NCBI RefSeq assembly: GCF_013166655.1
Contig: NZ_JABKCA010000035.1
Span: 1 to 51,377, forward strand
Length of the DNA: 51,377 nucleotides
Direction of reading: 5' to 3'
Origin: Lentimicrobium sp. L6
GTDB taxonomy: Bacteria > Bacteroidota > Bacteroidia > Bacteroidales > UBA12170
Part shown: piece after piece, positions 37,015 to 51,377 of the stretch
How positions within the stretch are numbered: the first letter of the stretch is position 1
Layout: every line of letters begins with the position of its first letter
Notes under the pieces: model-generated
Databases searched by the model: none
The model's input: only the letters and a program-made list of their open reading frames with translations
What the model was told of the DNA's origin: nothing
Made by a program: the position numbers and the translations under genes

Positions 37015-37308
37015 TTACCTTAACAGATACCAAATATCCTTAACAATCAATTCACGTTTAGATTTATTGTTTTTCTGTAAGGCGGTAATATGAGTGGCGC
37101 CAAGCTTCTTAGCTATAGTGGTATTTTTCATCTCCTCATCAAAATTGTGGGTATGTCCAATCTTCAATACTTTAAAATCACCTCCCTTTAGAGGGCGAAG
37201 GTAGATATATACTCCTCCAACGGTGGTCAGTTTTGCTGGTAATGAATAGGTGTGGAATAGGTATTTTTGACCAGATTTACCTTTTATGTTGATGGTTGAT
37301 GGTTTCAT
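37015..37308 (-). CDS. Small GIY-YIG-like protein
   Basis: The 97-residue protein has GGVYIYLRP near residue 31 followed by LKIGHT near residue 48. This is the beta-hairpin layout of GIY-YIG nucleases (GVYxx...YIG) with substitutions (VYI and KIG). Downstream catalytic Arg and Glu are not obvious: FDEEMKN stands where an RxxxH helix often lies. It may be a catalytically weak or repurposed member. Homologues often sit in accessory regions, as here. The family call is moderate. Confidence 0.6.
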   Translation of the reverse strand: MKPSTINIKGKSGQKYLFHTYSLPAKLTTVGGVYIYLRPLKGGDFKVLKIGHTHNFDEEMKNTTIAKKLGATHITALQKNNKSKRELIVKDIWYLLR

Positions 37309-37397
37309 GTTTGAGCTTTTTGTTTACTTTCTGATACTGCAATTTGTGGGAGAATGATAAATAGATTTACTGTGATTGATTCTGTGAATGGCTGTGA

Positions 37398-38090
37398 TCA
37401 GGAATTAATAATTTGCTTGATTTTATCTAATATAATGGGATATCTTTCTTCAAGAATAATAGGGTGCAAGTGTGCAGATAAAATCTCTTCTTCATGGGGA
37501 TGGACTATTATTTTTTGGAATTCAGTTTTGAGAAAATCTTTTAATAGTTTTGGAGCTTTTATTATTTCATCAACTATAGATATACGATTATCTATAACAT
37601 AAATAATATCTTCAAAATCATGGCTGAGCCGGTAATCTGGGACTGCTTCTCTTTGATGATAGGCCTCAAATTTGGTGGCTAAAAAACATGGAGCTGTAAA
37701 TAGTTGAATTTTTTCACCTTCTACATTAATGTATTGCAAATCTTCAAAACCTATTTTATACCAAGAGTTGGAAGGACCTAGTGGGCCGTCTTCTGAAGGC
37801 ATGATGTCAAGGGGGATATCTTTATATAGATAGCTGCAAATGGCATGACCGTTTGGATCAGGGTAGATGTTTAATTCGGCCAATCGTTGGTTTAGTTTAA
37901 CTAATTCACTGTAGTTTAATAATTTGATAGTCATGTCAATATCTGCAGTGGGTCGGATTTCATCTGCTGATGGATCGTCTGCATACAGGCTGATAACAGC
38001 ACCTCCTACAAAAACCATTTGCTCTTTCAATTCAGCTAAAGCTTTGGCTACTTGAACCACATTGGATATATTGATGACTTTATTCTCCAT
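37398..38090 (-). CDS. Nucleotidyltransferase-fold protein, candidate AbiEii-like toxin
   Basis: The 230-residue protein has the nucleotidyltransferase signature VFVGGAVISL (GG at 29-30) followed by TADIDM (Asp50, Asp52). This is the metal-binding pair of the DNA polymerase beta superfamily, as in AbiEii/MenT toxins. The C-terminal half is helical. Its start overlaps the preceding winged-helix gene by 11 bases, so expression is coupled, as in toxin-antitoxin pairs. It could modify tRNA or other RNA; it could also be a housekeeping tRNA-type transferase, though the context speaks against that. Confidence 0.75.
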   Translation of the reverse strand: MENKVINISNVVQVAKALAELKEQMVFVGGAVISLYADDPSADEIRPTADIDMTIKLLNYSELVKLNQRLAELNIYPDPNGHAICSYLYKDIPLDIMPSEDGPLGPSNSWYKIGFEDLQYINVEGEKIQLFTAPCFLATKFEAYHQREAVPDYRLSHDFEDIIYVIDNRISIVDEIIKAPKLLKDFLKTEFQKIIVHPHEEEILSAHLHPIILEERYPIILDKIKQIINS

Positions 38091-38604
38091 GTAGAATTTT
38101 TATTTTGAGTTCCTGAATGGCCATTTCCTTTTCTCTAGTTCTTCCGACTCTTATGGCATCTACTAAAGCCAATAATTCGTAGAGTTTTTTATCTTTTATG
38201 GCAGCTAGTGGCACTGTAGGATAGAGGGGGATGATACTTTGTCCTTTTGTAGTTCCTTTTCCAGAAGGCCAAACATACATTTCTTGACTTTTTATTTTCT
38301 TATTTAGAGGAGGAGCAGAATGAGCAGTTGGAATTCCTCTTGTTATGGCACCTGCTCGTTGAGGAAAAACAAAGCTAATACCATATTGTAGGAACTCTAC
38401 TAATGCCATTCGTCTCACCTTTTTTCCTGTAGGGTCTAATAAACCAGCATATTTGGAGCGAGCCAAAGATTTGCTAATCTCTGACTGACTAATATGTAAA
38501 TCCTCTTCCATGGTTTTTTGAAACCAAGTTTGTTGTTCTAAACTCAGGATTTTTAATAATACCACGATATCCAAAGGACTCATGTTGACCTGTTGTGTCT
38601 TCAT
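38080..38604 (-). CDS. Winged-helix DNA-binding protein, candidate antitoxin
   Basis: The 174-residue protein has a helix-turn-helix/winged-helix at about 10-60 (LEQQTWFQKTM, DLHISQSEISKSLARSKYAGL, then GKKVRRMALVEFLQ), similar in shape to MarR-type readers. A C-terminal part with WPSGKG and PLYPTVP follows. It is the first gene of a pair with the overlapping nucleotidyltransferase, and strong inverted repeats lie just upstream of its ATG. This order and regulation suit an autorepressing antitoxin. Confidence 0.7.
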   Translation of the reverse strand: MKTQQVNMSPLDIVVLLKILSLEQQTWFQKTMEEDLHISQSEISKSLARSKYAGLLDPTGKKVRRMALVEFLQYGISFVFPQRAGAITRGIPTAHSAPPLNKKIKSQEMYVWPSGKGTTKGQSIIPLYPTVPLAAIKDKKLYELLALVDAIRVGRTREKEMAIQELKIKILHGE

Positions 38605-38753: not shown

Positions 38754-38789
38754 ATAAAAAACGGATTACTTTCCGATACAAAGTAATCC
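38754..38789 (-). terminator. Intrinsic terminator of the HEPN-like gene
   Basis: Perfect arms GGATTACTTT (38763-38772) and AAAGTAATCC (38780-38789) run on the minus strand into TTTTTT, downstream of the gene that ends at 38883. Confidence 0.8.
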
Positions 38790-38882
38790 TATGTTGTTTA
38801 TCAGTTACTTACATAGACTGGGCAACAAATAGGAAACAAAAGTTGCTAAATCAAAGGAAAATGCAAGACAAAGATTAGAAAA

Positions 38883-39383
38883 TCAAACCATATTAGGTAT
38901 ATTTTCAAGAAATATAGCAAGAACATTCATAGCGGCATTAAGGTTTGTTCTTTGGTGGTGTATTTCTCTTAATTCTTTATTTCCGTGAAATAGGTTATTC
39001 CTATATCTGTACGATATTAATATACAAACAATAATTATGTTTTCATTAGTTTGATCAATCCCATGCAAAACGTTTTGTACAAATGTTCTTTGTGCGGAAT
39101 CCCGATGATTAAAAAGATGTGAAAAGTAGTTGTTTGCATTTTCGTGGTTTACATACCTACCTACAAAATAATTGAAGTATTCTGCAAATCTTACTGAATC
39201 TATATTACTTTCACGAATGTGTCTTCTGATTGATTGTTCATTAAATTGACGTTCACAGGCAATCTTTTCAAATAAGTTCCACATTAAGGTAAAGTCTCTT
39301 ACATGAGCAATTTCTTCCTCATCAAAAGGAATATCTAAATGTTCATTAATCCACACTATTGGGTTAAAATTATTTATTGCCAT
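38883..39383 (-). CDS. Small HEPN-motif protein
   Basis: The 166-residue all-helical protein carries RYRNNLFHG: Arg128-x4-His133, the R-x4-6-H signature of HEPN ribonuclease domains, followed by an acidic/basic helix. HEPN proteins are frequent in toxin-antitoxin and antiviral systems and cleave RNA as dimers. It has its own terminator and lies in the accessory region. No partner gene overlaps it. The domain call is based on motif and helical pattern. Confidence 0.65.
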   Translation of the reverse strand: MAINNFNPIVWINEHLDIPFDEEEIAHVRDFTLMWNLFEKIACERQFNEQSIRRHIRESNIDSVRFAEYFNYFVGRYVNHENANNYFSHLFNHRDSAQRTFVQNVLHGIDQTNENIIIVCILISYRYRNNLFHGNKELREIHHQRTNLNAAMNVLAIFLENIPNMV

Positions 39384-39522
39384 TTTGTATTATTTGTTTT
39401 AGTCAACTAAGATAAATGATTTTATAATTGAAAATACTTTATAATTTATTATTGAGATGTTATGCTGGGCACTATTTTGAAAACTTCCCACTTGATAAAA
39501 CGTCTTTGCAATTATAACCAAT

Positions 39523-39551
39523 AAAAAAACCGCTACATAATTGCAGCGGTT
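39523..39551 (-). terminator. Intrinsic terminator of the DUF6266 gene
   Basis: AACCGCT / AGCGGTT arms (39528-39534, 39545-39551) with seven T residues following on the minus strand, directly after the DUF6266 stop. Confidence 0.8.
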
Positions 39552-39573
39552 CTAAAGTAATCGTTTAACCCTA

Positions 39574-40215
39574 CTAAGCAACGGTTACAGAGCCAATATA
39601 AACGCTGTTAGCTACTTCTTTACCATCTTCTGAGATAAAGCCTATAAAGGCTTCTACTGAGCCTCCTGAGAAGTCAGAAGGAACAGTAAGGTTTTGTGAT
39701 AAGGTTGCTCTGGTAGCTCCTGCAGTATCATAAACTGCATATCCTTTGGTTGCATTATATACAACTAAAAGAGCCTTATCAGTCCCTTTTGCATTTCCTG
39801 AACCTGAGTTATCCGTCCAGGATAATTCAACGACTCCCGGATTAGTTGATGCTACACTTGCACCAGCAGAACCAACCAAACTACCACGACTAACTAAAGC
39901 CTTTGAATAATCAATTGTGAAGTTCGGATATGCTCCTGTAATTGCATTATTCAAATTGTACGACATGGCACTGTTAAACTGTGTCATTTTGATTGCATAC
40001 AATTTGAATCCTACCCTTAGAAATTCAGTCATTGGTTGAAGAAAATTCAACACTTTTGAGAATTTGGAACGTTGGTCAAGCTGACCCTGAGTTTTTGGAT
40101 TTGATACATTGGAAGGCTTGATACGCATGTAATCAATTCCTTTCCATGTTCCACCTACGATGTTTCCGACCTTGCCGGAGAAACCACCTAATACACCTTG
40201 AGAAATTTTACCCAT
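39574..40215 (-). CDS. DUF6266 family protein
   Basis: The 213-residue protein opens with GKISQGVLGGFSGKVGNIVG and continues with WKGIDYMR, NPKTQGQLDQR and a C-terminal beta-rich half (FIGFISEDGKEVANS, ending VYIGSVTVA). This is the DUF6266 family, known only from Bacteroidota and often present in several copies per genome. The function is unknown. There is no signal peptide. The Gly-rich N-terminus followed by an Ig-like beta domain suggests a structural or assembly role, but I claim none. It has its own terminator. Confidence 0.88.
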   Translation of the reverse strand: MGKISQGVLGGFSGKVGNIVGGTWKGIDYMRIKPSNVSNPKTQGQLDQRSKFSKVLNFLQPMTEFLRVGFKLYAIKMTQFNSAMSYNLNNAITGAYPNFTIDYSKALVSRGSLVGSAGASVASTNPGVVELSWTDNSGSGNAKGTDKALLVVYNATKGYAVYDTAGATRATLSQNLTVPSDFSGGSVEAFIGFISEDGKEVANSVYIGSVTVA

Positions 40216-40582
40216 CTTATGAGATATTTAAGTTTATAAATCTGTTATCGCTTGGACTTGACACGGACTTAATACGGTTTTGTCCTTGCACTTTCAGGGA
40301 AGATATTGCAAATAGTGGGCAATCATTGTATCTCAGGTTCTTATGCTTGTCTTTGCATCATTTTACTATGTCAGTTAGTCAATAATAGCAGAAAGGACTG
40401 AGTGAGGCTTAATTGAACGCTTAGGCATCCAAAAAGAGTAGGGGATGAAACAGACAAAAGGAAACGGAATAAATGGCTTGTGCGATGGCATTGTGGGTTT
40501 ATGCCGTAGTCTTTTGGTTGATTTCAGACCCGTAGCTTAAATTTGCCTATGTGTTCAATTAATGCGGTGGGTATTTATAAGC
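40216..40582. other. Non-coding gap in the accessory region
   Basis: These 367 bases hold no supported gene. They show a higher share of G and C than the flanking genes toward 40440-40560. The 10-mer GGCTTGTGCG (40475-40484) recurs at 42014-42023, beside the right inverted repeat of the block described below. Confidence 0.5.
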
Positions 40583-41170
40583 TTATGGTTTCTTACAGAT
40601 ATGATCCATTTTAGTTTTAAAATGAGTACGTAAAACTATATTCACCGGATTTGAAAGTCCGTCAACATAAATATGAAACTCATTTTCAAGTTGTTCAAAA
40701 AAGGCGGTTCGATTTATTGAAATACTATCATTGATTTTGCGAACTAAAGGACCTACATCACGGATAAGTGTTTTTTCTTTAGTTTCTGCTTGGTGTAAAA
40801 TTCCATTTCTGATGTGATCGTAAAAAATCTCAGCTGAATCAATATCAAAATAAGGTTTGAAACTATCACTTTTTGTAAGGAAGTCAACAAATGTTGGTTT
40901 GCCATTATTCCTGTTATCAACAATGCCATTGCGAAAACTGTATAATGCTTCTATAAGAAGGCAACTAATTGCCATAATTGTAAACCCAAACTTTCTTTCT
41001 CTTACAGGTAGCTTTGCATCAGTTTGAATTAACAAACGAATTGGTTCTAAATATCTTGGTTCAAACCGATGTGTAAATATTTGAATAGCAGATTCCCAAT
41101 CATCAGAATGTGGTGTATCTAAATTGAGGTTATTATAATCATCCGACTTAAAACCTTTTGCAATTTCCAT
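40583..41170 (-). CDS. HEPN-like small protein
   Basis: The frame stays open for 115 codons upstream, but that stretch is purine-rich repeat-like DNA. The ATG at 41170 is therefore chosen, giving 195 residues. The protein is helical with a hydrophobic helix (FGFTIMAISCLLIEALY) and HIRNGILHQAETK. There Arg121-x4-His126 is the HEPN-type motif, preceded by a conserved RNG. It resembles small HEPN proteins of defence islands. No partner gene is evident. Confidence 0.65.
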   Translation of the reverse strand: MEIAKGFKSDDYNNLNLDTPHSDDWESAIQIFTHRFEPRYLEPIRLLIQTDAKLPVRERKFGFTIMAISCLLIEALYSFRNGIVDNRNNGKPTFVDFLTKSDSFKPYFDIDSAEIFYDHIRNGILHQAETKEKTLIRDVGPLVRKINDSISINRTAFFEQLENEFHIYVDGLSNPVNIVLRTHFKTKMDHICKKP

Positions 41171-42036
41171 GTAGTAAAGATATTGTTTTTCTGTGTGCGA
41201 TTGAAAAAAGACTACGCAGGTAAAACAGCCTTGAGCTGCGTTGGCAAAGCGGAAAAACGGAATGGAGGAACGGAATGTAGTTTTGTAGCTGAGCGCGCGA
41301 GCCGACTGCGAGTGGAGCAAGGGTGGTGGATGCAAAAACCCGAGGAACGAGAGATGCAGACAGCTACCGTTTACGGCAGGGCTGGCGTGTGTTTTTGCTT
41401 TTGGGATGGGAAAGGCAAGTGTAGGGATTGAACGGAACGAAACGGGTGTGTTGGAAAAATGGAATGAAGCAATTCTGGCAGTTTTGAAGGGTTTGATAGT
41501 ATTTGATATTTTCATTTTTAAATAAATACTAATTTGGGGTAGGAAATGCTGCCGGATTGCGTTATGAAATTGAGGGTGGATTAGTGGAGTGGAGAGAATG
41601 AGCTACTCTTGCGTGGGGTGCTGAAAGTTGCAGAATGAATGGAGAGAGGAACGAACGACTGGAATGAAGCTACTGTAAGCATTGGCTGAATGCAAAAAAC
41701 ATGACAGCCCGATTAGCCCGCAGCGACCCGCAGGCGAGCCCATTAATATGCAGCGGCAGACCCCCAATTAAAAAATATGTGAGGAACGAACACCATATTA
41801 GGGTTTGGGGGGATGTAATAGCTGCTAGTGAGGATGGAGAGAGTGTGTGAAGCAAAACAAGTGAACGGCATTTTGTGAGCACCTACCGGAGCGCAAACAA
41901 AATGGTAAGTGAACGGTATATGCAAGGGCGACCGTAGGGAGTTTATTTACCCTTGCATATATGTTTTTGCGGAACAAAACGGAACGACTGACGAACACCG
42001 CTTTACCTGCGTAGGCTTGTGCGGTTGGATTAATTA
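41171..42036. other. Structured non-coding block bounded by 13-bp inverted repeats
   Basis: CTACGCAGGTAAA (41212-41224) and TTTACCTGCGTAG (42002-42014) are perfect inverted repeats about 800 bp apart. The inside is purine-rich and less AT-rich than the neighbours, with recurring words GGAACGAAC, GGAATGAAGC, AAGTGAACGG and AACGGAACGA. No convincing gene is found on either strand. It lies between one HEPN-like gene and the alpha-oxoamine synthase gene and looks like an inserted cassette or recombination-site region. Confidence 0.65.
41917..41961. repeat. 12-bp-arm stem-loop
   Basis: TATATGCAAGGG (41917-41928) pairs perfectly with CCCTTGCATATA (41950-41961) around a 21-base loop, followed on the plus strand by TGTTTTTG. 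It lies about 75 bp beyond the alpha-oxoamine synthase stop and might end that operon or be part of the block's structured DNA. Confidence 0.65.
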
Positions 42037-43158
42037 CTATATGTACAAAAGTTCAAATATGCATTTCACTAATTTACGGATGTCTTGATAAGTATGTGTT
42101 GGTTGTATTGCAATTCGTGAGATTAATTCATCATTTTTTGTTGTTGGAGGTTCGGAAATAATTACAAAAAAACCAAGTGATTTCAGATCATTTTCTATAT
42201 GCCTTGGATCTATAGAAGAAGGAAAGTTGATCCCAGTAATATGTAAAGATCCAGAATGGGATATTCCAAATCTATTGAGTTCAGATCTTAGAAGATTTGC
42301 TTTGTCAATAATCTGAATTCGTTCTTTTTTGCATTCTAAAGAAATATCAAGCGATATTGATATAACATCCCAAATTATAGGTGGAATCGCAGTTGAATAT
42401 ATCCAGGGTGATGCAATTTGAGTTAAATCATTAATTAGTACTTCGCTGGACAAAACAGCTGCGCCCATAATTCCTAATGATTTGCTGAAACCAATCATTC
42501 TAATATCTGGTCTGATAAAACCATGTTGCTTAATTCCAAGATGCCCTAATATACCAAATGAGTGGCATTCGTCTGTAATAATAGTTACTTTTCTTCTATC
42601 ATCTAGATTGCTAAATTTTAAAAATGTTTCAACCCCAGTAATACCTTCTACAGTTGGATAAATAACTGCGATCCTATCTTCTTTATAATCCTTTACAATT
42701 TCAGACAAATCAGTTTCATTCAGATCAACAATAAGTTTTTTAACATGATTAGCTTTTAGACCAGTAATTACGGAGTTGTGATTTTTTATATCTGAAACAA
42801 TTAAATCATAATCCTTACTCAAATATTCACAAATTGAATAATTTGCTGCCCACCCAGATGCGAAACATAAAGCCTTTGGGTAGGACATGAGTTTCTTAAT
42901 CTTATTTTCTAATTTTAAACGCGAAGGATGAGTGCCACCCAAATAATTGCTGCCCAATGAACCAAAAAAAGAACCATCTATTTTTATACTATTTATCTGC
43001 TCATTAAAATCTGCACGCCAGGGAATCCCAAGATATTGTGTCGAGCAAAAATTTACTGCTTTGTTTCCAAAATCGTCAATAACTTCCGACGATGTTAGAG
43101 GTGTGTATTCATTGTAATACCTTACACCTGAATTGATAATGTTATTTACTAATTGCAT
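42037..43158 (-). CDS. Alpha-oxoamine synthase (BioF/KBL/CqsA-type PLP enzyme)
   Basis: The 373-residue enzyme condenses an acyl thioester with an amino acid or SAM-derived amine, giving an aminoketone. PLP lysine is Lys226 in MIGFSKSLG. Asp196 and His199 are in TDECHSFGILG, and the cofactor-stacking His127 is in KNHNSV. GSNYLGGTHPSRLKLE and the ASGWAAN segment (100-106) complete the family pattern. The SGWAAN wording recalls the CqsA/LqsA autoinducer-synthase subgroup; this is from memory. The gene is last in a four-gene operon and overlaps the upstream methyltransferase-ATPase gene by 17 bases. BioF activity is possible, but no biotin genes adjoin it. Confidence 0.88.
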   Translation of the reverse strand: MQLVNNIINSGVRYYNEYTPLTSSEVIDDFGNKAVNFCSTQYLGIPWRADFNEQINSIKIDGSFFGSLGSNYLGGTHPSRLKLENKIKKLMSYPKALCFASGWAANYSICEYLSKDYDLIVSDIKNHNSVITGLKANHVKKLIVDLNETDLSEIVKDYKEDRIAVIYPTVEGITGVETFLKFSNLDDRRKVTIITDECHSFGILGHLGIKQHGFIRPDIRMIGFSKSLGIMGAAVLSSEVLINDLTQIASPWIYSTAIPPIIWDVISISLDISLECKKERIQIIDKANLLRSELNRFGISHSGSLHITGINFPSSIDPRHIENDLKSLGFFVIISEPPTTKNDELISRIAIQPTHTYQDIRKLVKCIFELLYI

Positions 43159-44644
43159 ATATTCTTTGATGTATTATTTCGTAATAGTTATTAAAAAATG
43201 ATTCGATTGAATTAAACTCATGGTCAACCGCAATTATCGTTGGAGATTTAATTTCATTAGAAACATAGTAGGATTTGAGATTAGAAAAGAATTGATATTT
43301 TTTCACTTGATCCATACCTGTACAAGGTTCATCTAAGAGTAATAAATCTGGTTCTGAAATTACAGCCTGAGCAAGTGCAATGCGTTGATATTCTCCACCA
43401 CTTAGTTTATTTCTGGAATGCACTCTTTTCAATATGCTCTGAGGTAATCCTAGATTAATAAGAACTTGATTAATTATTTTTTCATTATTATTAAAAAGTA
43501 TCAAGTTTGATTTGACAGAAATATCTTCAATTAGCTTTGGATTTTGTTCAAGTAAAAAGACTTTTTTTGGCTTATTGCTAATATCAATATTCTTATTTTT
43601 ATACCATTCTGCAATATATTTTAAGATTGTTGTTTTGCCAACACCTGACTGACCTAGAACCAAATTCCATTTCCCAATTTCAAAACTATACAATCCTTTA
43701 TTTATAATAGTTTCATTGTTTTGGTAGCTAAAGTTTTTGCTAAATTTGACCAATATACTAGACGACACAGAATGTTTAATTATCGGTGTTTTACAAAATA
43801 TAAACTTAGCGTATATATAATCAGAAATTCTTTGATTCTTTATTTTTTGTGGTTTTGCAATTTCACTAAGATTTTCATAGGCGTTTTTTGTTGATGATGA
43901 CAAGCAGAATTTAGCTGCTGAACCAAAACTCTTGTAAATTACATCTTCGTTAATAATAGGATTTGATATAAGATCTAATCTAGTACCAAGAGCTTTATCA
44001 GATATTGAGAAATTTCTTCCAGAACCATTTATTGACCATGTTATAGGAGCACCTCCATGTTGCCTTTTGATTACATGTTTTTTAATAGTATCAACAATAT
44101 TAATATTAACCGCTGAATCTGCAATATAAAGAATACCTGTTTCCTTGAGCAAAGATTCTGACAGCTTAAAAAATAATGATTGTTCTTCTGGGGTCAGCAT
44201 GTAAAAAGCATCACGGCAAATAATAATATCTATATCATTTGAATAAGATTCATTTAACTCTCTCAGGCTTTCAATCGAACCAGTTATTGGCTTAATACAA
44301 TCTGTGAGTTTTTTTGAAGCTACTTTTTCTGTAAATTTTGAAATAGCATATTCTGAAATATCAATACCAAAACTATGACAAGAAGGTAGATGCTCTGCTA
44401 ACCTAAGCAATAAATCACCTTTTCCACAAGCAAAATCAATTATTTTAGTATTGTTTGAAAAGGAAAAAACCGATAAATGGTTAAGTAATAATCTAGATGT
44501 AATCTCTGTATTATTTATAATACCCTTATTAAAATTCAATTCGTTCATTTCATTTTCAAAAAACTCTGAAAAGTGTATTTCATCAGACCAATTTGGATTT
44601 TGGTGTTTTTCATTCCAATAAATTTCTTTCTCGGTATATGACAT
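43142..44644 (-). CDS. Methyltransferase-ABC ATPase fusion protein
   Basis: This 500-residue protein joins two domains rarely seen together. Residues about 45-200 are a class I SAM-dependent methyltransferase: motif I IIDFACGKGDLLLRLAEHL (68-86), GIDIS for motif II and a later RDAFYML. Residues about 315-495 are an ABC ATPase with Walker A GQSGVGKT (331-338), Q-loop Gln367, signature LSGGE (414-418), Walker B LLLLDEP with Glu439 and switch His475. The frame is continuous across a linker with LSSSTKNAYENLSE. The gene lies 4 bases after the permease gene and overlaps the synthase gene, so it is presumably the energising subunit of this transporter. Confidence 0.85.
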   Translation of the reverse strand: MSYTEKEIYWNEKHQNPNWSDEIHFSEFFENEMNELNFNKGIINNTEITSRLLLNHLSVFSFSNNTKIIDFACGKGDLLLRLAEHLPSCHSFGIDISEYAISKFTEKVASKKLTDCIKPITGSIESLRELNESYSNDIDIIICRDAFYMLTPEEQSLFFKLSESLLKETGILYIADSAVNINIVDTIKKHVIKRQHGGAPITWSINGSGRNFSISDKALGTRLDLISNPIINEDVIYKSFGSAAKFCLSSSTKNAYENLSEIAKPQKIKNQRISDYIYAKFIFCKTPIIKHSVSSSILVKFSKNFSYQNNETIINKGLYSFEIGKWNLVLGQSGVGKTTILKYIAEWYKNKNIDISNKPKKVFLLEQNPKLIEDISVKSNLILFNNNEKIINQVLINLGLPQSILKRVHSRNKLSGGEYQRIALAQAVISEPDLLLLDEPCTGMDQVKKYQFFSNLKSYYVSNEIKSPTIIAVDHEFNSIESFFNNYYEIIHQRIYAISK

Positions 44645-44648
44645 AGGG

Positions 44649-47621
44649 CTATTGTAATGTTGTTTGCGATAAATAAATTGATAAAAGAGTTATTTGAATA
44701 AATACTAAAATATTAAAAGACAACCTTAATATTTTGAGATATAATGCCTTTTTTTCTTTAGCTTTTTCTGTATCCGCTAGTATTTTGTCATCAAGGATAA
44801 GATCAAAAAATGAAAATGAAAATCCATTATAAAGCTTATAAACAAGAATTAATCGGATGACCAAGTAGCCAAGTAATAAGATTAAGAATGTAATTAGAGG
44901 ATTTAATAATTCAATTCCGAATCCTGTTAATTTATCTATTACCCATGATAATGGTCGAAACAAAGAGCTTAAATCAGATTTTTTATCATAATAAACAGCC
45001 TGAAGTCCAATCGCTTGACTATCTTCATAAACTCCTTTTTCTTTGAAATGTTTTAAGATGTCTCTACGGACGATTGGATTTGAACAATTCTCACTATACC
45101 ATTTTAGCAACTCCTTATCAATTATTATTTTAGAGGTTGCTTGCAAATCTCTAAGCTCAATGTTGTCAAGTTTCGAATAAATTTTGCTGCCTAAATTAAT
45201 TGAAACTTGATTTAGTTTTACATCAATAAGCTTAATATCACCACTTAAAGAGATTGGTGCATCTATTGATAAATTAGAAGGTTCTTTGCTAGTGCTTGAC
45301 ACTTCTGAAACAATTAAATCTTTATATGAATTACCAGAAATACTTAGGTTACTTAAAAGGTTTAGTTTAAATATTTCGAGGCTTGTGTTTACATTATTTG
45401 TTACGATTTTATTTTGTCCAAACAACTTTAAATCACGCAATATTAAATTTAAAGAATAGTCTGATTTATTATAAGTTTCCAATCTGAAATTTGAAATGTT
45501 AATCTTCTCAATACGAATAGACAAATGGTCTAGTAATATCGGCACAAAAGAAATGTTGACTAGTTCCATATTAACAGTAGGAAGATCACTAGAATTTGAT
45601 TTTATATCAATATTTGATGTTGAAATATTTTTTAATAGGATATTCTTTGATTTAAAATTTGCCCTAATGGTAATATCAGGGATGCATGAATTCATTACAT
45701 TTATTGTTCTAAAAGAAGTCTTCCCATCTCTTAAATCTAGATTGAAGAATGATGATTCCTCCAAATAATGATGATTATCTTCATTAATATCAACACGATT
45801 AAGATAAATATTCTCAAATTTTATATCAGGACATTTTGAAGGTGTATTCGATCCTATGACATGTTTAATTTCAATATCAACATTTTGACTTCCACCACGA
45901 ATGCATAAGATAGATTTATCATAGTTGAAATTTAAAGTATCAATTCTGAGTTTTGTAATACAGTTTCCAATATCTAAATAACACTTGTCCTTAAAGTTAA
46001 CATGAAGGCTTTTAATTTCGACCATCGATACAGTAGAGTCGATACTAGTCATTTTTGAGGCTATGACAAAATCATTTACACCGGCATTTGCAGATGATAC
46101 TGAGCTGATCAGAATTGTAAAAAATAAGCCAATATAAATAACTTGTTTTTGTAATGACTTTATAACAATTTTTTTCATAATATTTTGGAGCTTTTGAATA
46201 CCAAAGATTAATACCAAATAGAATAAGAAACATATTAATACTCCCAAGTAAATCTGGGGTGATAAATCTGACAGATATAATCCACGTATTGTATTGGCAA
46301 AATTGTTTGGTTCATCACTCAATAGTGTCGTAATACCATCCTCTATCCACAAAAAATACATTGTAATAAATAATGGAATTGAAACCTTATATAGGTCAGT
46401 TAATTGAATAGTCAGTATTCTTTTCTTTCTATTGTGCCTCATGTTCTTGGTGTTAAGGTAAATTGGTATATGCTTGAGAACAGAAGTCTTATTGAAAAAG
46501 AATAGAATAAGTAGGAAAGAATATAATATGAGTGTGAAAAATTCTATGTAATTAGAATTATTCTTCCCTGCTGAAAGAAATGCAATCAAACCAAAAATTA
46601 CAGGAGGGAGTAGCGCAAAATATGAGATTACAGTAATGAATTTCTGATAGTGCTGGAAGATCCTATCGCCAAAGTAATACGGAAGGTATTTTAAAGATAT
46701 TGTATAGATTGTAAGAAAAAGCGTAAAGGATATAAAAATGATTATAAGATGTTTGCCAAATAAAGATCTTATAATTTTTATAAAATTTTCATCCCAAATG
46801 AACTCTGATTTATTTGCTATTGCAAGGAGAACAAATACGCTGAACAAAAAGAAAACACCGGAAGATAAATAAAGGAATAGATTTAAATTTAATCCTTTTA
46901 TAGAGTTGCGTTTAAATAAAAAAAGAATGTTTTTTTTGAACTTATATAAATGGATTGATCGGATTAATTGAACAAATAGATATACAATCCCTAGGTTAAG
47001 TATAATGAAAGAAATAATACTTATTAATATATAACTCGTATTAACTTCAGGATTGCCATTCATTAAATTGCTTATAAAGTTGTAAATATGAGAAATGTAC
47101 GTTTCAACTTTTCCACCTGTAAACGTAGGAAGTGATATCATGGACTGATTTAATAAAACGCAGAAAAAAAGAGTAAAAAGTATGGGCTTAATAAAAATGA
47201 TAACAAATAGGCTTAGGCTTTTGTAATTACTATTTGAAGATGCCAAATTGAAATCAATCGATTTAAAAGTGATCAGTTTTATGTGAGCATTGAAAATGTG
47301 TTTTAATAAATAATAAGCAATCCAACTATGAAATAGAATTCCACCAAAAAGTAAAATCCAAGGATTGTCATTACTTGAAAGACCAAATATACTTTGAGAA
47401 AATTTACTTATGAATAATGATAGAAGGACTGGTGCAAGAAGTAAGGGTAACAATAATGAATAATACGCATATTTGAATGTTTTAGGTTTATTCCTAGAAG
47501 AGTTTACTTCGAATGAAAGTAATAAAAACCCAATGAATGTATTTATTACTGATGCTGTTAAAATAACAGGTAAACTAGTATTAAATCCTTCTAAGACATC
47601 TGATATATAAAAGCCGTCCAT
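44649..47621 (-). CDS. ABC importer permease fused to an exported beta-strand-rich domain
   Basis: The ATG at 47621 (TAATAATG just after the preceding stop) gives 990 residues; an ATG at 47666 would overlap that gene by 43 bases. The first 480 or so residues hold about 12 hydrophobic segments in two halves, like FbpB/ThiP-type fused permeases (for example PTFTGGKVETYISHIY in half one). Then comes what looks like a complete signal peptide (KKIVIKSLQ, hydrophobic stretch, SSANAG). About 330 residues of short beta-strand repeats rich in Asn, Ser and Ile follow, then a WYSENC...DILKHFKEKG segment. That segment recalls pentapeptide-repeat/ion-channel proteins. Two final membrane helices close the protein. 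The fusion is unusual. Confidence 0.7.
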   Translation of the reverse strand: MDGFYISDVLEGFNTSLPVILTASVINTFIGFLLLSFEVNSSRNKPKTFKYAYYSLLLPLLLAPVLLSLFISKFSQSIFGLSSNDNPWILLFGGILFHSWIAYYLLKHIFNAHIKLITFKSIDFNLASSNSNYKSLSLFVIIFIKPILFTLFFCVLLNQSMISLPTFTGGKVETYISHIYNFISNLMNGNPEVNTSYILISIISFIILNLGIVYLFVQLIRSIHLYKFKKNILFLFKRNSIKGLNLNLFLYLSSGVFFLFSVFVLLAIANKSEFIWDENFIKIIRSLFGKHLIIIFISFTLFLTIYTISLKYLPYYFGDRIFQHYQKFITVISYFALLPPVIFGLIAFLSAGKNNSNYIEFFTLILYSFLLILFFFNKTSVLKHIPIYLNTKNMRHNRKKRILTIQLTDLYKVSIPLFITMYFLWIEDGITTLLSDEPNNFANTIRGLYLSDLSPQIYLGVLICFLFYLVLIFGIQKLQNIMKKIVIKSLQKQVIYIGLFFTILISSVSSANAGVNDFVIASKMTSIDSTVSMVEIKSLHVNFKDKCYLDIGNCITKLRIDTLNFNYDKSILCIRGGSQNVDIEIKHVIGSNTPSKCPDIKFENIYLNRVDINEDNHHYLEESSFFNLDLRDGKTSFRTINVMNSCIPDITIRANFKSKNILLKNISTSNIDIKSNSSDLPTVNMELVNISFVPILLDHLSIRIEKINISNFRLETYNKSDYSLNLILRDLKLFGQNKIVTNNVNTSLEIFKLNLLSNLSISGNSYKDLIVSEVSSTSKEPSNLSIDAPISLSGDIKLIDVKLNQVSINLGSKIYSKLDNIELRDLQATSKIIIDKELLKWYSENCSNPIVRRDILKHFKEKGVYEDSQAIGLQAVYYDKKSDLSSLFRPLSWVIDKLTGFGIELLNPLITFLILLLGYLVIRLILVYKLYNGFSFSFFDLILDDKILADTEKAKEKKALYLKILRLSFNILVFIQITLLSIYLSQTTLQ

Positions 47622-47623
47622 TA

Positions 47624-48688
47624 TTACTTTTTTAATCGCCAAGAATTCCATTCTTGGGAAATCCATGAAAAGTTCTTACTCCAAAAACGATTGTTAATTA
47701 TGATCCCTTTTTTATTCTTAAATGAACCATGCTTCAAATATATTTCTGAATCACTATTATTGATACTAATGTCTTCAGATGGAACTAAGTAGCCTTGAGC
47801 TAAAGAAAAGTTTTTGGCATTTTGAGGATATTTATAAAGATTAAATAGTAATTGCTTTGCTTCTTCAATATTTTTTGCGCCTTTAGGAATAATAAGCCAG
47901 TCAGTGCTTATTAAGGCATCTTTAGGATTTATTTTAATAGTTGATTTATTTTTAGCAGACTTATTTATTGACCAGATTCTGCCAGACCAAGAAGCAACCA
48001 TAGCAAATTCCCCAGATTCTAATCCTTTTTGAAGTTGATCCCCTGTAGTCCACCAAATTGTTTCTGAATTAATAGAATTAAGTAAATCGAATGCATCATC
48101 TAATTGATGCTCTATCTCATTTTTGGTTAGCAGTGGATTATATAAACAGGAATCCAACCCACGCCCTAAAGCTAAAAGTGCGATTTCAATATTTCCAATT
48201 GGAAAATCTCTCAATCCTCTTTTCCCTGAAAAAGATTGAATATTAAAAAAATCATTCCAAGTTGGATTTTCAACTTCATTATTTCTAGTATCATATGCAA
48301 GTATATAACCATATTGCAATAATGGTATTCCATATTCATTGAATAACTCATCCTTAAACTTACATTTGTTTTCAGTATTGAATTTTTCAAAAATATTTTC
48401 TGCACTAGGATGGTTAATGTAGTGATCTTCAACGTGAATAATATCCCATGTGTTAATTCCTTTTGTAATTCTACTTGTTAATATTCCATAATCGCCGTTC
48501 CAAGATTCAGATGTTAAACTGATGTTTAATGTATCTGATATTGGTTTTACCCAATTTTCAACTAAATCTTTTTGAAATTTACCACCCCAGGAGATAAATT
48601 TTACGGATTTCTCTTTTTTACTGCTACAACTTGTAATTAAAAATATTAACACAAGGAAGATTGAAAGTTGTCTTAGTTTTAATTTCAT
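47624..48688 (-). CDS. Solute-binding lipoprotein of an ABC importer (PotD/Fe-SBP-like)
   Basis: The 354-residue protein has a lipoprotein signal with lipobox ITSC (Cys21). It then shows the layout of SBP_bac_8-type binding proteins for polyamines, opines or iron: KFISWGGKFQKDLVENW, WDIIHVEDHYI, YGYILAYDTR, NPTWNDFF and a late WLIIPKGAKN. It should capture a small ligand in the periplasm and deliver it to the permease encoded directly downstream. It is the first gene of the transporter operon, starting 35 bases after the Argonaute stop, with no obvious promoter between. The ligand is unknown. Confidence 0.85.
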   Translation of the reverse strand: MKLKLRQLSIFLVLIFLITSCSSKKEKSVKFISWGGKFQKDLVENWVKPISDTLNISLTSESWNGDYGILTSRITKGINTWDIIHVEDHYINHPSAENIFEKFNTENKCKFKDELFNEYGIPLLQYGYILAYDTRNNEVENPTWNDFFNIQSFSGKRGLRDFPIGNIEIALLALGRGLDSCLYNPLLTKNEIEHQLDDAFDLLNSINSETIWWTTGDQLQKGLESGEFAMVASWSGRIWSINKSAKNKSTIKINPKDALISTDWLIIPKGAKNIEEAKQLLFNLYKYPQNAKNFSLAQGYLVPSEDISINNSDSEIYLKHGSFKNKKGIIINNRFWSKNFSWISQEWNSWRLKK

Positions 48689-48723
48689 TGGATCTAATTT
48701 TTATTATTAATAATATTGTCAAG

Positions 48724-50784
48724 TTACAAAAACCACAAATTATCTTTTCCGAAATCTGGTATGTCGTCACCATCGAAGTGGGGAGCGATTTGGGCTACCA
48801 TTTCGGGGTATTTTATTGTTACTGGTAAATTCTGTTGCCTTACTGATTTCCAATACATACGGCTAAACTGATATACCTGGTCGATTAGTTCCCTGATTAC
48901 TTTTACATCTTTCAACTGCCCTTTATCGGTGCAATCAATGTTCAGTTTGATGGGAAACGGAAAGCCATCGGCTTTGCTGAAAAGCCCATCTGGATAGCGT
49001 GTATTATTGAATAGTAAGTATTTGCTGTTACCAATATTTATATATGTTCCGCTTATTGGCATGAGGTCTTTCCAACTCCTGTCAAAGGCAACTATATCTT
49101 CTGATTCTGTTTTGTTTATGGAAAGGATAAACACCGGAATTGGTAAATCCATTTCGTTGAGTGCCTTTTCAATATGTTGCAACTCAACTTCGCTCATGCT
49201 TTTATAAAAATGAATGATTAGCCTTTCTGGTTGGTTGTTAATGGTTGCGTATTCTCTTACTGATTTGGATATTTTACCTGCCAGCATTTCTATTTCATCT
49301 TTCATGAAATATTCGAAGCTGTTGAATTTACCATCATTGGAAAAGCTGAATGCACTACCAATGTACTGTATGTTTTCTTCAACATGCTTGAAAGCTCCAA
49401 CACCAACTATTAATTCATTTTTGATAGGTGTATTCAATCGCCAGGGAATACCGTCTAGTTTTGCCAATATTGCGACAGCAATGTTAGGCAAACTATAGAC
49501 CCAATCATCACCCTGAGCCATCATCTTTTCAGGGTCGATTGCCTGTGAAGTGATTTTTCGTTTTAGCAGTAGTTCCTTGACTTTGTAATAAATTTCACGG
49601 CGTTCAAGATCGTGCTCATATTTACCGTAAGGTGTAATGTATATGGCGATATATTTTATGTCAGGATCAATATTCCTGTCGAATAGTTCTTTTTCAATCT
49701 CAGGTATGGGATTGTCCTTGTCTTTAAAAGTAATGCTAAAGCCTTTTTCAGTATGAAAAAGTACATTGGCATATTGATACAATCCTCTAAACCAACGAAA
49801 GCCATTAACAAATCGTTTGTTTAACTCTATGGCTTCATTCACAGCGTCTTCGTGAAGAATGAAAAACAAGTGAACCTTTTTGTATGGACTGGCTTTAAAT
49901 GGTTTTAGATTCTTCAAGCAAGTTTTAGGTACAATACCCGTTTGGTTTTTGCCAAATACCAATAGATTACTTTCTTCTGATGTTAAGTTAATCCGTGTTG
50001 AGCTTACATTTAAAAATCCCTCATCATGAATTGGTACTATCTCTTTAAACTCCTTTACATTCAGGAATTTCGTATAAAAAGCATTGATGTTTTTTAAGTA
50101 TTTAGGGTAACGATTATCCCGTGGCGGTGCTTCGGTTGGTATTTCTAAAGCTGCTTGCAGCTTTTTATTTAATACCGGATAGTATTTTGAATAGTCCGGC
50201 ACATCTTCTTCCGATAACCATTCCCATTTTTGAAGTTGTTTTCCATGCAATACCCAATTAAAACAAGTAGGGGAGACTTCCTGAATAAGGTCTGCAACGG
50301 ACTTTTTCAGAACTTTGGAAATGCCATCAAAGGAAACTAACAATTCAGGAAATTTGCTGACTGTTGAAATTTGAACCTTTAGGGAAAATTTCATATAAAC
50401 ATCCCATTGGGTTGTTGACTCTTTGGGAACTTTTACCCAAACCTGATTTTCTTTGATAAATCCTACTTTAACAATTTGCTTCTTTATGATTCTGAAATAG
50501 TAGTTTATCTGTCTGTTGAAATATCGTTTTACAAGGTCTTGGTTTTCGGTGCTAAGATTAATTTCAAGAGGACAAAAGCCTTCCTGCTCTCCTGTAAATG
50601 TAGTGTATATGGAATCTACCCCGTTACTGCTAATGCCCGGAAACAAAGAATCTATTTCGTTTGGGAAAAGTGTTTTGTGTAAACACTGGCATCTTTCGTT
50701 ATCCTCTTTTGAAAAATAGAACGTTTGCTTTTCCGCAGGAAAATCAAATGTTAAGATATTGAAGAATAGATTCTGTTGTTGCAT
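48724..50784 (-). CDS. Prokaryotic Argonaute, probably catalytically inactive
   Basis: The 686-residue protein ends with a MID-PIWI module. The MID (about 375-455) has YITPYGKYEHDLERREIYYK, where Tyr400, Lys401 and Gln414 fit the guide 5'-end pocket, then IAVAILAKLDGIPWRL with Lys442. The PIWI domain (about 456-686) ends in the family hallmark NLWFL. The expected first catalytic Asp is replaced (GVG at 461-463 instead of GxD). The HRD-type motif reads HFYK (525-528). Cleavage is therefore unlikely. Residues 1-300 would be N/PAZ or APAZ-like; I cannot resolve which. Inactive Argonautes usually guide a separate effector, and none of a known kind is visible here. Confidence 0.88.
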   Translation of the reverse strand: MQQQNLFFNILTFDFPAEKQTFYFSKEDNERCQCLHKTLFPNEIDSLFPGISSNGVDSIYTTFTGEQEGFCPLEINLSTENQDLVKRYFNRQINYYFRIIKKQIVKVGFIKENQVWVKVPKESTTQWDVYMKFSLKVQISTVSKFPELLVSFDGISKVLKKSVADLIQEVSPTCFNWVLHGKQLQKWEWLSEEDVPDYSKYYPVLNKKLQAALEIPTEAPPRDNRYPKYLKNINAFYTKFLNVKEFKEIVPIHDEGFLNVSSTRINLTSEESNLLVFGKNQTGIVPKTCLKNLKPFKASPYKKVHLFFILHEDAVNEAIELNKRFVNGFRWFRGLYQYANVLFHTEKGFSITFKDKDNPIPEIEKELFDRNIDPDIKYIAIYITPYGKYEHDLERREIYYKVKELLLKRKITSQAIDPEKMMAQGDDWVYSLPNIAVAILAKLDGIPWRLNTPIKNELIVGVGAFKHVEENIQYIGSAFSFSNDGKFNSFEYFMKDEIEMLAGKISKSVREYATINNQPERLIIHFYKSMSEVELQHIEKALNEMDLPIPVFILSINKTESEDIVAFDRSWKDLMPISGTYINIGNSKYLLFNNTRYPDGLFSKADGFPFPIKLNIDCTDKGQLKDVKVIRELIDQVYQFSRMYWKSVRQQNLPVTIKYPEMVAQIAPHFDGDDIPDFGKDNLWFL

Positions 50785-51067
50785 AATCGTTTATTTTATC
50801 ATTATCACTTCCTTTACCTTTACCATTTGTAATAACATTGTTACTATTTCTATTTCTAGCATGGTCATTACCTACTTGTCCATGTCCATGCGTATCATTA
50901 TCTCTATCTCTAAAAGCATCTGCATGGACATTGTCACCATGCGTTGCTTAATTACCTTTAAAATCATATCCAACCGCAGCTTCGACACTATGTCTAAGTT
51001 TCTGTCGAAGACTACCTTTTAAAGCTTCGTTTTTATCATCATCTTCGACAACTTGCCAATGTTTAAA
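50744..51067 (-). pseudogene. Decayed reading frame upstream of the Argonaute gene
   Basis: One minus-strand frame reads through 39 codons (51067-50951, FKHWQVVEDDDKNEALKG and on) to a TAA. It resumes for 67 codons to a TGA at 50746-50744, overlapping the Argonaute start by 40 bases. There is no start codon, and an in-frame TAG precedes it. The second part is very rich in Asn, Asp, His, Gly and Arg. It looks like a gene remnant. The rest of this 293-bp gap shows no promoter of the known kind. Confidence 0.35.
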
Positions 51068-51077
51068 CTATCCACAC

Positions 51078-51377
51078 CTAACTTTTATCTAATATTTGAA
51101 GGAATACATTCCCTCTCTCTGTTATCTTATATTGTTGTTTAGAACTTTTAGGAGTATCTGGTATTGTCCAAGCTATTAAACCATCTTCTTTAAGTTTATT
51201 AACTGTTGTATATAACTGACCTGATATAGATTTTTGTCCTAATGCTCTAGATAGTTCTTGTGTTGATGATGTTTTAACTTGTACTAATCGTAATACTTTT
51301 CCATATAATGACTCCTGCTGTAACTCCTGCTGTAACTCCTGCTGTAACTCCTGCTGTAACTCCTGCTGTAACTCCTG
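51078..51377 (-). CDS. C-terminal winged-helix domain of a protein cut by the window edge
   Basis: The last 99 codons and stop of a gene continue beyond the right edge. The visible part starts with a Gln/Glu/Leu tetrapeptide repeat (ELQQ, about five copies). Then comes a winged helix (SLYGKVLRLVQ, STQELSRALG, TTVNKLKEDGLIAWTIPD, QQYKITERG). This type of ending, including the TIPD-x-Y-x-IT wording, is usual in Fic proteins and in AlbA_2/RecG-like ATP-binding proteins that also carry short tandem repeats before the domain. Codons end strikingly often in A or T, unlike the Argonaute gene. Confidence 0.7.
   Translation of the reverse strand, partial: QELQQELQQELQQELQQELQQESLYGKVLRLVQVKTSSTQELSRALGQKSISGQLYTTVNKLKEDGLIAWTIPDTPKSSKQQYKITERGNVFLQILDKS
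51312..51377. repeat. 12-bp tandem repeat (CTCCTGCTGTAA) encoding ELQQ
   Basis: Five exact copies and half of a sixth run to the window edge, all within the winged-helix gene. The length is a multiple of three, so gain or loss of units keeps the frame. Confidence 0.95.

Follow-up and report, generated by a model that had tools for sequence, protein, structure and literature searches.

What is an importer of the ATP-binding cassette (ABC) type doing beside a methyltransferase and an alpha-oxoamine synthase (AOS), and does this combination belong to the prokaryotic Argonaute (pAgo) encoded just upstream of it? The question is raised by a four-gene operon of Lentimicrobium sp. L6 on contig NZ_JABKCA010000035.1 (C35); the window analyzed here is this whole contig, bases 1-51377. 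An earlier note on the operon had overlooked both the upstream Argonaute and the surrounding element. The operon sits in a ~30 kb mobile element that is integrated at mnmE and also carries type I restriction-modification (R-M) genes and the pAgo. With somewhat better than even confidence, we read the four genes as importer-plus-modification cargo of this element, accessory and exchangeable, rather than as a dedicated partner of the pAgo.

The four open reading frames (ORFs) on which the earlier note had based its operon are all present on the minus strand, with unbroken frames and close packing. A gene for a solute-binding lipoprotein (SBP; 47624-48688, 354 aa) is followed by those for a 1005-aa membrane protein, a putative two-in-one ABC permease (44649-47666), a 500-aa methyltransferase (residues 64-178) fused to an ABC ATPase (residues ~320-480; 43142-44644), and a divergent AOS of 373 aa that belongs to the pyridoxal phosphate (PLP) enzymes (42037-43158). 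The spacing that had been given holds in part. The methyltransferase-ATPase and AOS genes do overlap by 17 bp and a 4-bp gap does separate the membrane-protein and methyltransferase-ATPase genes, but the "2 bp" between the first two genes fits only a later ATG (residue 16) of the membrane protein; counted from its first ATG, the SBP and membrane-protein genes overlap by 43 bp. The same-strand run exceeds these four genes, as 35 bp separate the SBP gene from the end of the pAgo gene upstream. Pfam domains bear out that the operon combines an importer-type SBP and ATPase with a methyltransferase and a divergent AOS.

The SBP matches SBP_bac_8 (PF13416, 2.2e-19), which places it among the solute-binding proteins, and it is of the ABC importer type that resembles polyamine, gamma-aminobutyric acid (GABA) and opine binders. 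Its relatives in the PDB include an SBP-GFP fusion (9d57, 1.7e-32) and a GABA sensor precursor (6dgv, 3.5e-31); further matches are a polyamine binder, MotA, a mannopine binder and an agropine binder. The N-terminal LITSC, as read from the sequence, is presumably a lipobox-like motif. In the fusion protein, Methyltransf_31 (PF13847, 2.5e-16) at residues 64-178 precedes ABC_tran (PF00005, 3.8e-19) at residues 321-441. Its ATPase part carries GQSGVGKT, LSGGE and LLLLDEP, which we take to be Walker A, signature and Walker B, the three motifs of an ABC ATPase. The best-scoring model for the methyltransferase is CpaM (42.9 bits, below the cut-off).

Position and hydropathy are what make the 1005-aa protein a putative permease. 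At the hydropathy threshold used, 11 hydrophobic segments lie within residues 1-530, followed by a hydrophilic, beta-rich stretch of ~380 residues and two C-terminal segments. At full length, Pfam gives no match, and the protein cut into pieces yields matches below cut-off only; NCBIfam gives a single match (19.8 bits vs. a cut-off of 70) and the PDB a single one at chance level. Alignment with hhalign to two thin Pot-type permease profiles (four rows each) scores near zero. AlphaFold2 (AF2) models of the two parts of the protein are too weak for fold identification, the one weighed for a permease fold having a confidence (pLDDT) of 43. Foldseek returns nothing at E 0.001 for the C-terminal part, its top rows being mostly beta-helix proteins with a probability of at most 0.2. 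The beta-strand-rich stretch (window 45150-46094) is unexpected in a permease; its AF2 pLDDT is 75-86 over roughly the first 80 residues and lower beyond.

The fourth protein matches Aminotran_1_2 (PF00155, 7e-20), placing it among the fold-type I PLP enzymes. H127, D196, K226 and R348, which we take to be the catalytic residues of the AOS family, are invariant in a seven-row alignment. Nevertheless, the protein reaches no NCBIfam equivalog cut-off among BioF (158 bits vs. 426), KBL (110 vs. 460), SPT (101 vs. 500), ALAS (108 vs. 339) and CqsA (76 vs. 428); all ten comparison proteins of the AOS family score 281-407 bits on the BioF model and are thus themselves under its cut-off. Phylogenetic trees, which hold no labeled CqsA, were built with 38 rows (L123, 327 aa, was dropped for its length) and then with 45 rows, and the reading was the same. 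The second tree was rebuilt with seven AOS loci (L104, L106, L107, L111, L112, L119 and L131) because tblastn at default settings had overlooked them, whereas protein comparison found them; for the same reason, 36 loci were searched again with phmmer --max. The AOS branch measures 4.03 and 3.94 changes per column in the two trees, roughly double the length of the runner-up. BioF-like rows (L139 and Providencia BioF) stand closest to it at weak support; the tree program marked the place as unsure and warned of long-branch joining. The protein therefore clusters firmly with neither KBL nor BioF, the outcome on which the earlier note had made its proposal depend, and appears to be a very divergent branch of a well-studied family, unsurely nearest to BioF-like rows. 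A KBL assignment is unsupported in both trees. The distinction that had been drawn from the biotin pair also stands: the methyltransferase scores 20.8 bits on BioC against a cut-off of 185, the AOS stays far below the BioF cut-off, and bioA, bioB and bioD are absent among the neighbors scanned. BioC as an identity for the methyltransferase and the BioC-BioF pairing were both rejected on these grounds.

The close packing, the domains, an SBP nearest to amine and opine binders, and the retained AOS catalytic residues support the following scheme. The SBP would capture a small amine or amino-acid-like compound, which the membrane protein together with the fused ATPase would take up as a binding-protein-dependent ABC importer. 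The methyltransferase tethered to the ATPase may then methylate the incoming molecule on entry, and the AOS may contribute to the same pathway by condensing an amino acid and an acyl thioester. Import and modification of such a compound is the most likely function. We infer substrate, direction and order of the steps, starting from domains, co-linearity, conserved residues and a location that are directly observed. The operon would thereby serve host fitness or maintenance of the element, like the metal-efflux and defence cargo that occupies the same slot in related elements (see below).

The surroundings of the operon show how it is housed. The right end of the window is a 12-bp tandem repeat (51311-51377) that also opens contig C78 (L055 1-55). 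The repeat encodes QELQ units within a Schlafen AlbA_2 gene, the C-terminal part of which lies at 51078-51377 on the minus strand with the remainder on C78, and one frame of QELQ repeats reads through both sides. Thus, the assembly break coincides with a coding repeat. Beyond it, C78 carries DUF5655 (PDC-S18), an 8xMP membrane protein, two small ORFs, HsdR, FRG (PDC-S15), HsdS, HsdM and a helix-turn-helix (HTH) gene, and then PriCT-2/DUF3987, a BT4734-like N-terminal (VirE_N-type) gene, two HTH genes, DUF6617, a tyrosine integrase, a short gene and mnmE (the HTH labels are our own reading). The last 17 bases of mnmE are repeated exactly at window 38766-38782 (E 8e-4; no strand), the distal attachment (att) core. 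A degenerate second copy with one change (15 of 16 bases; E 0.78, weak alone) lies at 37322-37337, likewise without strand, next to chromosomal flank that is conserved. The sister species G002 has an mnmE of 95% identity, and ~20 bp behind it comes an ORF that shares 91% identity with window 37015-37308, so the site is empty there. From the mnmE-end and distal att copies, the main unit comprises window 38783-51377 and C78 1-17627, ~30.2 kb in all. An integrase beside mnmE, att repeats and an empty site in a relative mark it as a mobile element.

A DUF6266 gene (39574-40215, minus strand; PF19781, 4.7e-93) lies close to the element's distal end. Beyond the AOS gene, window 40583-42030 holds a 310-aa ORF without family match, and window 41516-42030 occurs only once in the genome. 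Between the two att copies at 37322 and 38766, an AbiEii-like gene and its neighbor (37398-38604) look like satellite cargo, a small unit next to the main element.

The pAgo gene (48724-50784, minus strand) encodes 686 aa and matches PADLOC model PDLC02385 at 7.8e-278. The PIWI domain can be aligned to RsAgo and EcAgo, and a glycine occupies the site of the first catalytic aspartate (ELIVGVGAF), as in both; GVGAF and IIHFYK presumably stand at catalytic sites. The seven relatives in the alignment likewise have no aspartate at the first site. The protein thus apparently lacks its catalytic residues and is probably inactive. It has an RsAgo/EcAgo-like PIWI domain devoid of these residues, and, since both reference proteins are treated as long-B in the accessible part of PMC10620215, we call it long-B-like. 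Base composition hints that operon and pAgo may have been acquired separately: GC content is 28-32% in the operon genes and 36% in the pAgo gene (33-37% in the three Hsd genes), and GC at third codon positions (GC3) is 0.20-0.24 and 0.36, respectively.

Relatives of the element were sought with two queries; when the stretches around the matches were read for element genes, rows covering <25% of a query were dropped. The pAgo matched in 24 of 395 genomes of the phylum sample, its own included; stretches were fetched for 12 and widened for six. The integrase matched in 38 of 355 class genomes, again with its own, and nine others at or above ~60% identity were examined, three of them already known (loci of the family are L034/L094/L100, L035/L095, L037/L097, L038/L098 and L175-L184). 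In four genomes (G455, G677, G544 and G592), mnmE is accompanied by an integrase of 59-64% identity and by VirE_N, PriCT2/DUF3987 and pAgo genes, all in identical order. All six newly fetched integrase genomes have mnmE with the integrase, and G791, G840 and G958 among them also a pAgo, so that seven relatives carry the full order mnmE-integrase-VirE_N-PriCT2/DUF3987-pAgo. The pAgo was not found within 39.8 kb in G852, nor in G820 and G906, whose contigs stop at 5.0 and 18.7 kb. VirE_N, PriCT2 and pAgo are present in G524, with integrase and mnmE not in the stretch read; G506 has the pAgo and a DUF6266-like gene, the other element genes being absent from its stretch. As in Lentimicrobium sp. 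L6, a DUF6266 gene lies near the distal att in G455, G677, G840 and G958, and a distal att was not found in G544, G592, G791 and G524. A further att-like copy ~6 kb past the element end in G455 (L100 12120 and 18394) hints at tandem insertion.

What follows the pAgo differs among eight relatives. Defence genes fill this slot in three (DrmA/DrmB in G455, PD-T4-1 in G677, TmtA in G592) and efflux genes of the resistance-nodulation-division (RND) type in four: mutually related CusA-like RND and copper-type P-type ATPase genes in G840 and G958, an RND gene behind a helicase-like gene (our own label) in G791, and AcrB/OEP in G524, 45% identical to the G791 protein. In the eighth, G544, an AraC regulator precedes genes without assignment up to the contig end. 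The four-gene operon is absent from the stretches read in all eight, and phmmer --max against 2627 frames of the 36 loci matched neither the SBP nor the membrane protein nor the AOS inside related elements; elsewhere, the SBP matched the four SBP loci that had been fetched deliberately, the AOS only L091, and the fusion generic ABC ATPases (≤37 bits). These eight relatives suggest that mnmE-integrated elements with VirE_N, PriCT2/DUF3987, R-M and pAgo form a family with exchangeable cargo.

Does the operon occur anywhere else? Whole-genome searches covered samples of Bacteroidota, the phylum to which Por_Secre_tail and DUF6266 matches in the window point; coverage of other phyla came from plasmid, phage and viral-contig sets and a single scan of genome contigs. 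The operon's own genome was the only one to match the fusion among 11 family genomes (1e-20), the membrane protein among 393 order genomes and the SBP among 395 class genomes (1e-15). At 1e-8, the SBP matched in 10 of 395 phylum genomes, counting its own, and identity in the others is 25-33%; four of the nine matching genomes among the 394 others were inspected, and none has the operon. In L091, an AOS gene lies ~3.7 kb from the SBP gene, and this AOS falls with KBL. The membrane protein matched neither plasmids nor phages, and the SBP no phage. Plasmids gave 726 SBP records, of which the one inspected is an ordinary ATPase-SBP-permease-permease set. For the fusion, there were matching records among plasmids (4771) and phages (238), but none reached 80% coverage. 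Viral contigs, searched with the membrane protein, fusion and AOS only, held no relative; in the scan of genome contigs, each of the four loci was a partial ABC ATPase match. Because tblastn overlooked the seven AOS loci, its negatives at ~25% identity are soft. The searches made of the literature did not find a description of operon or element among the records listed. The alternative raised in the earlier note, that insertion confined the operon to this genome, is in part borne out by its place in an mnmE-integrated element and by the lack of a second copy in the family, order and class samples, and goes as far as these samples reach.

How, then, does the operon relate to the pAgo? It could be the effector arm of an inactive pAgo that senses invading nucleic acid, with a downstream transport or small-molecule effector disabling the cell, in the manner of BPAM but built on an ABC machine. 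The apparently inactive pAgo is only 35 bp away, and in published long-B systems the associated genes, trans-membrane proteins included, lie downstream of the pAgo (accessible part of PMC10620215). However, the cargo after the pAgo varies in the relatives, which makes an obligate partnership unlikely, and the difference in base composition modestly agrees. The upstream DUF5655 and AlbA_2 genes are alternative pAgo partners, and in G840 the gene before the pAgo is a DUF5655 80% identical to that on C78. We regard an effector role for the operon as improbable. Equally improbable is the proposal of the earlier note that a molecule is made and re-imported, i.e., that the AOS makes a CqsA-like aminoketone signal that the methyltransferase tailors and the SBP recovers. 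AOS, methyltransferase and SBP do share one unit; yet the idea is not borne out, as the CqsA score led us to reject a CqsA-type synthase and a sensor kinase is not among the neighbors scanned, which do not comprise every ORF of the window.

A stand-alone defence module in a defence island, using a made or imported small molecule, is unlikely, though less so than these two. The element carries R-M, FRG and PDC-S18 genes, and defence genes occupy the slot in three of the eight relatives. On the operon itself, though, PADLOC finds partial ATPase and methyltransferase overlaps only (mad3 57 bits, mad2 51 bits, weaker others) and zero matches for the SBP, membrane protein and AOS, and the slot holds RND efflux genes in half of the relatives. 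The related version in which an immune module, Argonaute-linked or stand-alone, uses the ABC transporter with its tethered methyltransferase and the AOS as effector, e.g., through a small molecule arresting the invaded cell, we hold to be a little more doubtful still.

Several points weigh against reading the operon as importer-plus-modification cargo. A recognized ABC permease fold was not found in the 1005-aa protein by Pfam, whole or in pieces, or by the Pot-type profiles. A homologous operon was not found in the samples searched, and hence selection on the operon is not measurable. The base-composition argument is modest, since HsdS (0.20) and two further window genes (0.24) have the same GC3 as the operon (0.20-0.24). 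The join of C35 and C78 is based on the shared repeat, the unbroken frame and synteny, without reads. Moreover, three of the seven relatives with identified cargo have defence genes in the slot, which leaves a defence role some small probability.

Compared with known systems, the operon is of a known kind, an importer with modifying enzymes as island cargo, and its gene make-up is unmatched in the searched samples. It shares the SBP family and the ABC ATPase domain with PotD/MotA-like importers of polyamines, GABA or opines, but differs in the ATPase-methyltransferase fusion, the AOS and an unrecognizable 1005-aa membrane chain with a beta-rich part. The AOS has the PLP fold and catalytic residues of BioF and other alpha-oxoamine synthases; unlike them, it scores far under every cut-off and sits on a long branch of unsure place. 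As far as the accessible part of PMC10620215 goes, the long-B systems BPAN, BPAS and BPAM likewise have an inactive RsAgo/EcAgo-like pAgo, a downstream same-strand gene and a VirE_N-type gene upstream (og_54). Here, by contrast, the SBP comes first downstream, the four genes hold no nuclease or Sir2 domain, and the VirE_N gene stands roughly 12th in the upstream direction rather than 2nd to 8th; the trans-membrane protein described there (bAgaM) was compared by description only. An element that inserts at the 3′ end of mnmE and varies in its cargo recalls the SGI1-type islands at trmE/mnmE, which, in the part of PMC8409611 available, are gammaproteobacterial and have replication genes and cargo of other make-up.

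If the scheme holds, the fusion of methyltransferase and importer ATPase would link the uptake of a molecule to its chemical modification. The element may also bear on the wider biology of pAgos. According to the available parts of the two papers, RND efflux pumps occur in 14% of long-B pAgo operons (PMC6299218) and long-B pAgos are linked with VirE_N genes (PMC10620215). Because eight relatives show exchangeable cargo, these hitherto unexplained pAgo-RND and pAgo-VirE_N links may mark a shared element, not a shared pathway, and the published RND association of long-B pAgos would then reflect the cargo of such elements.

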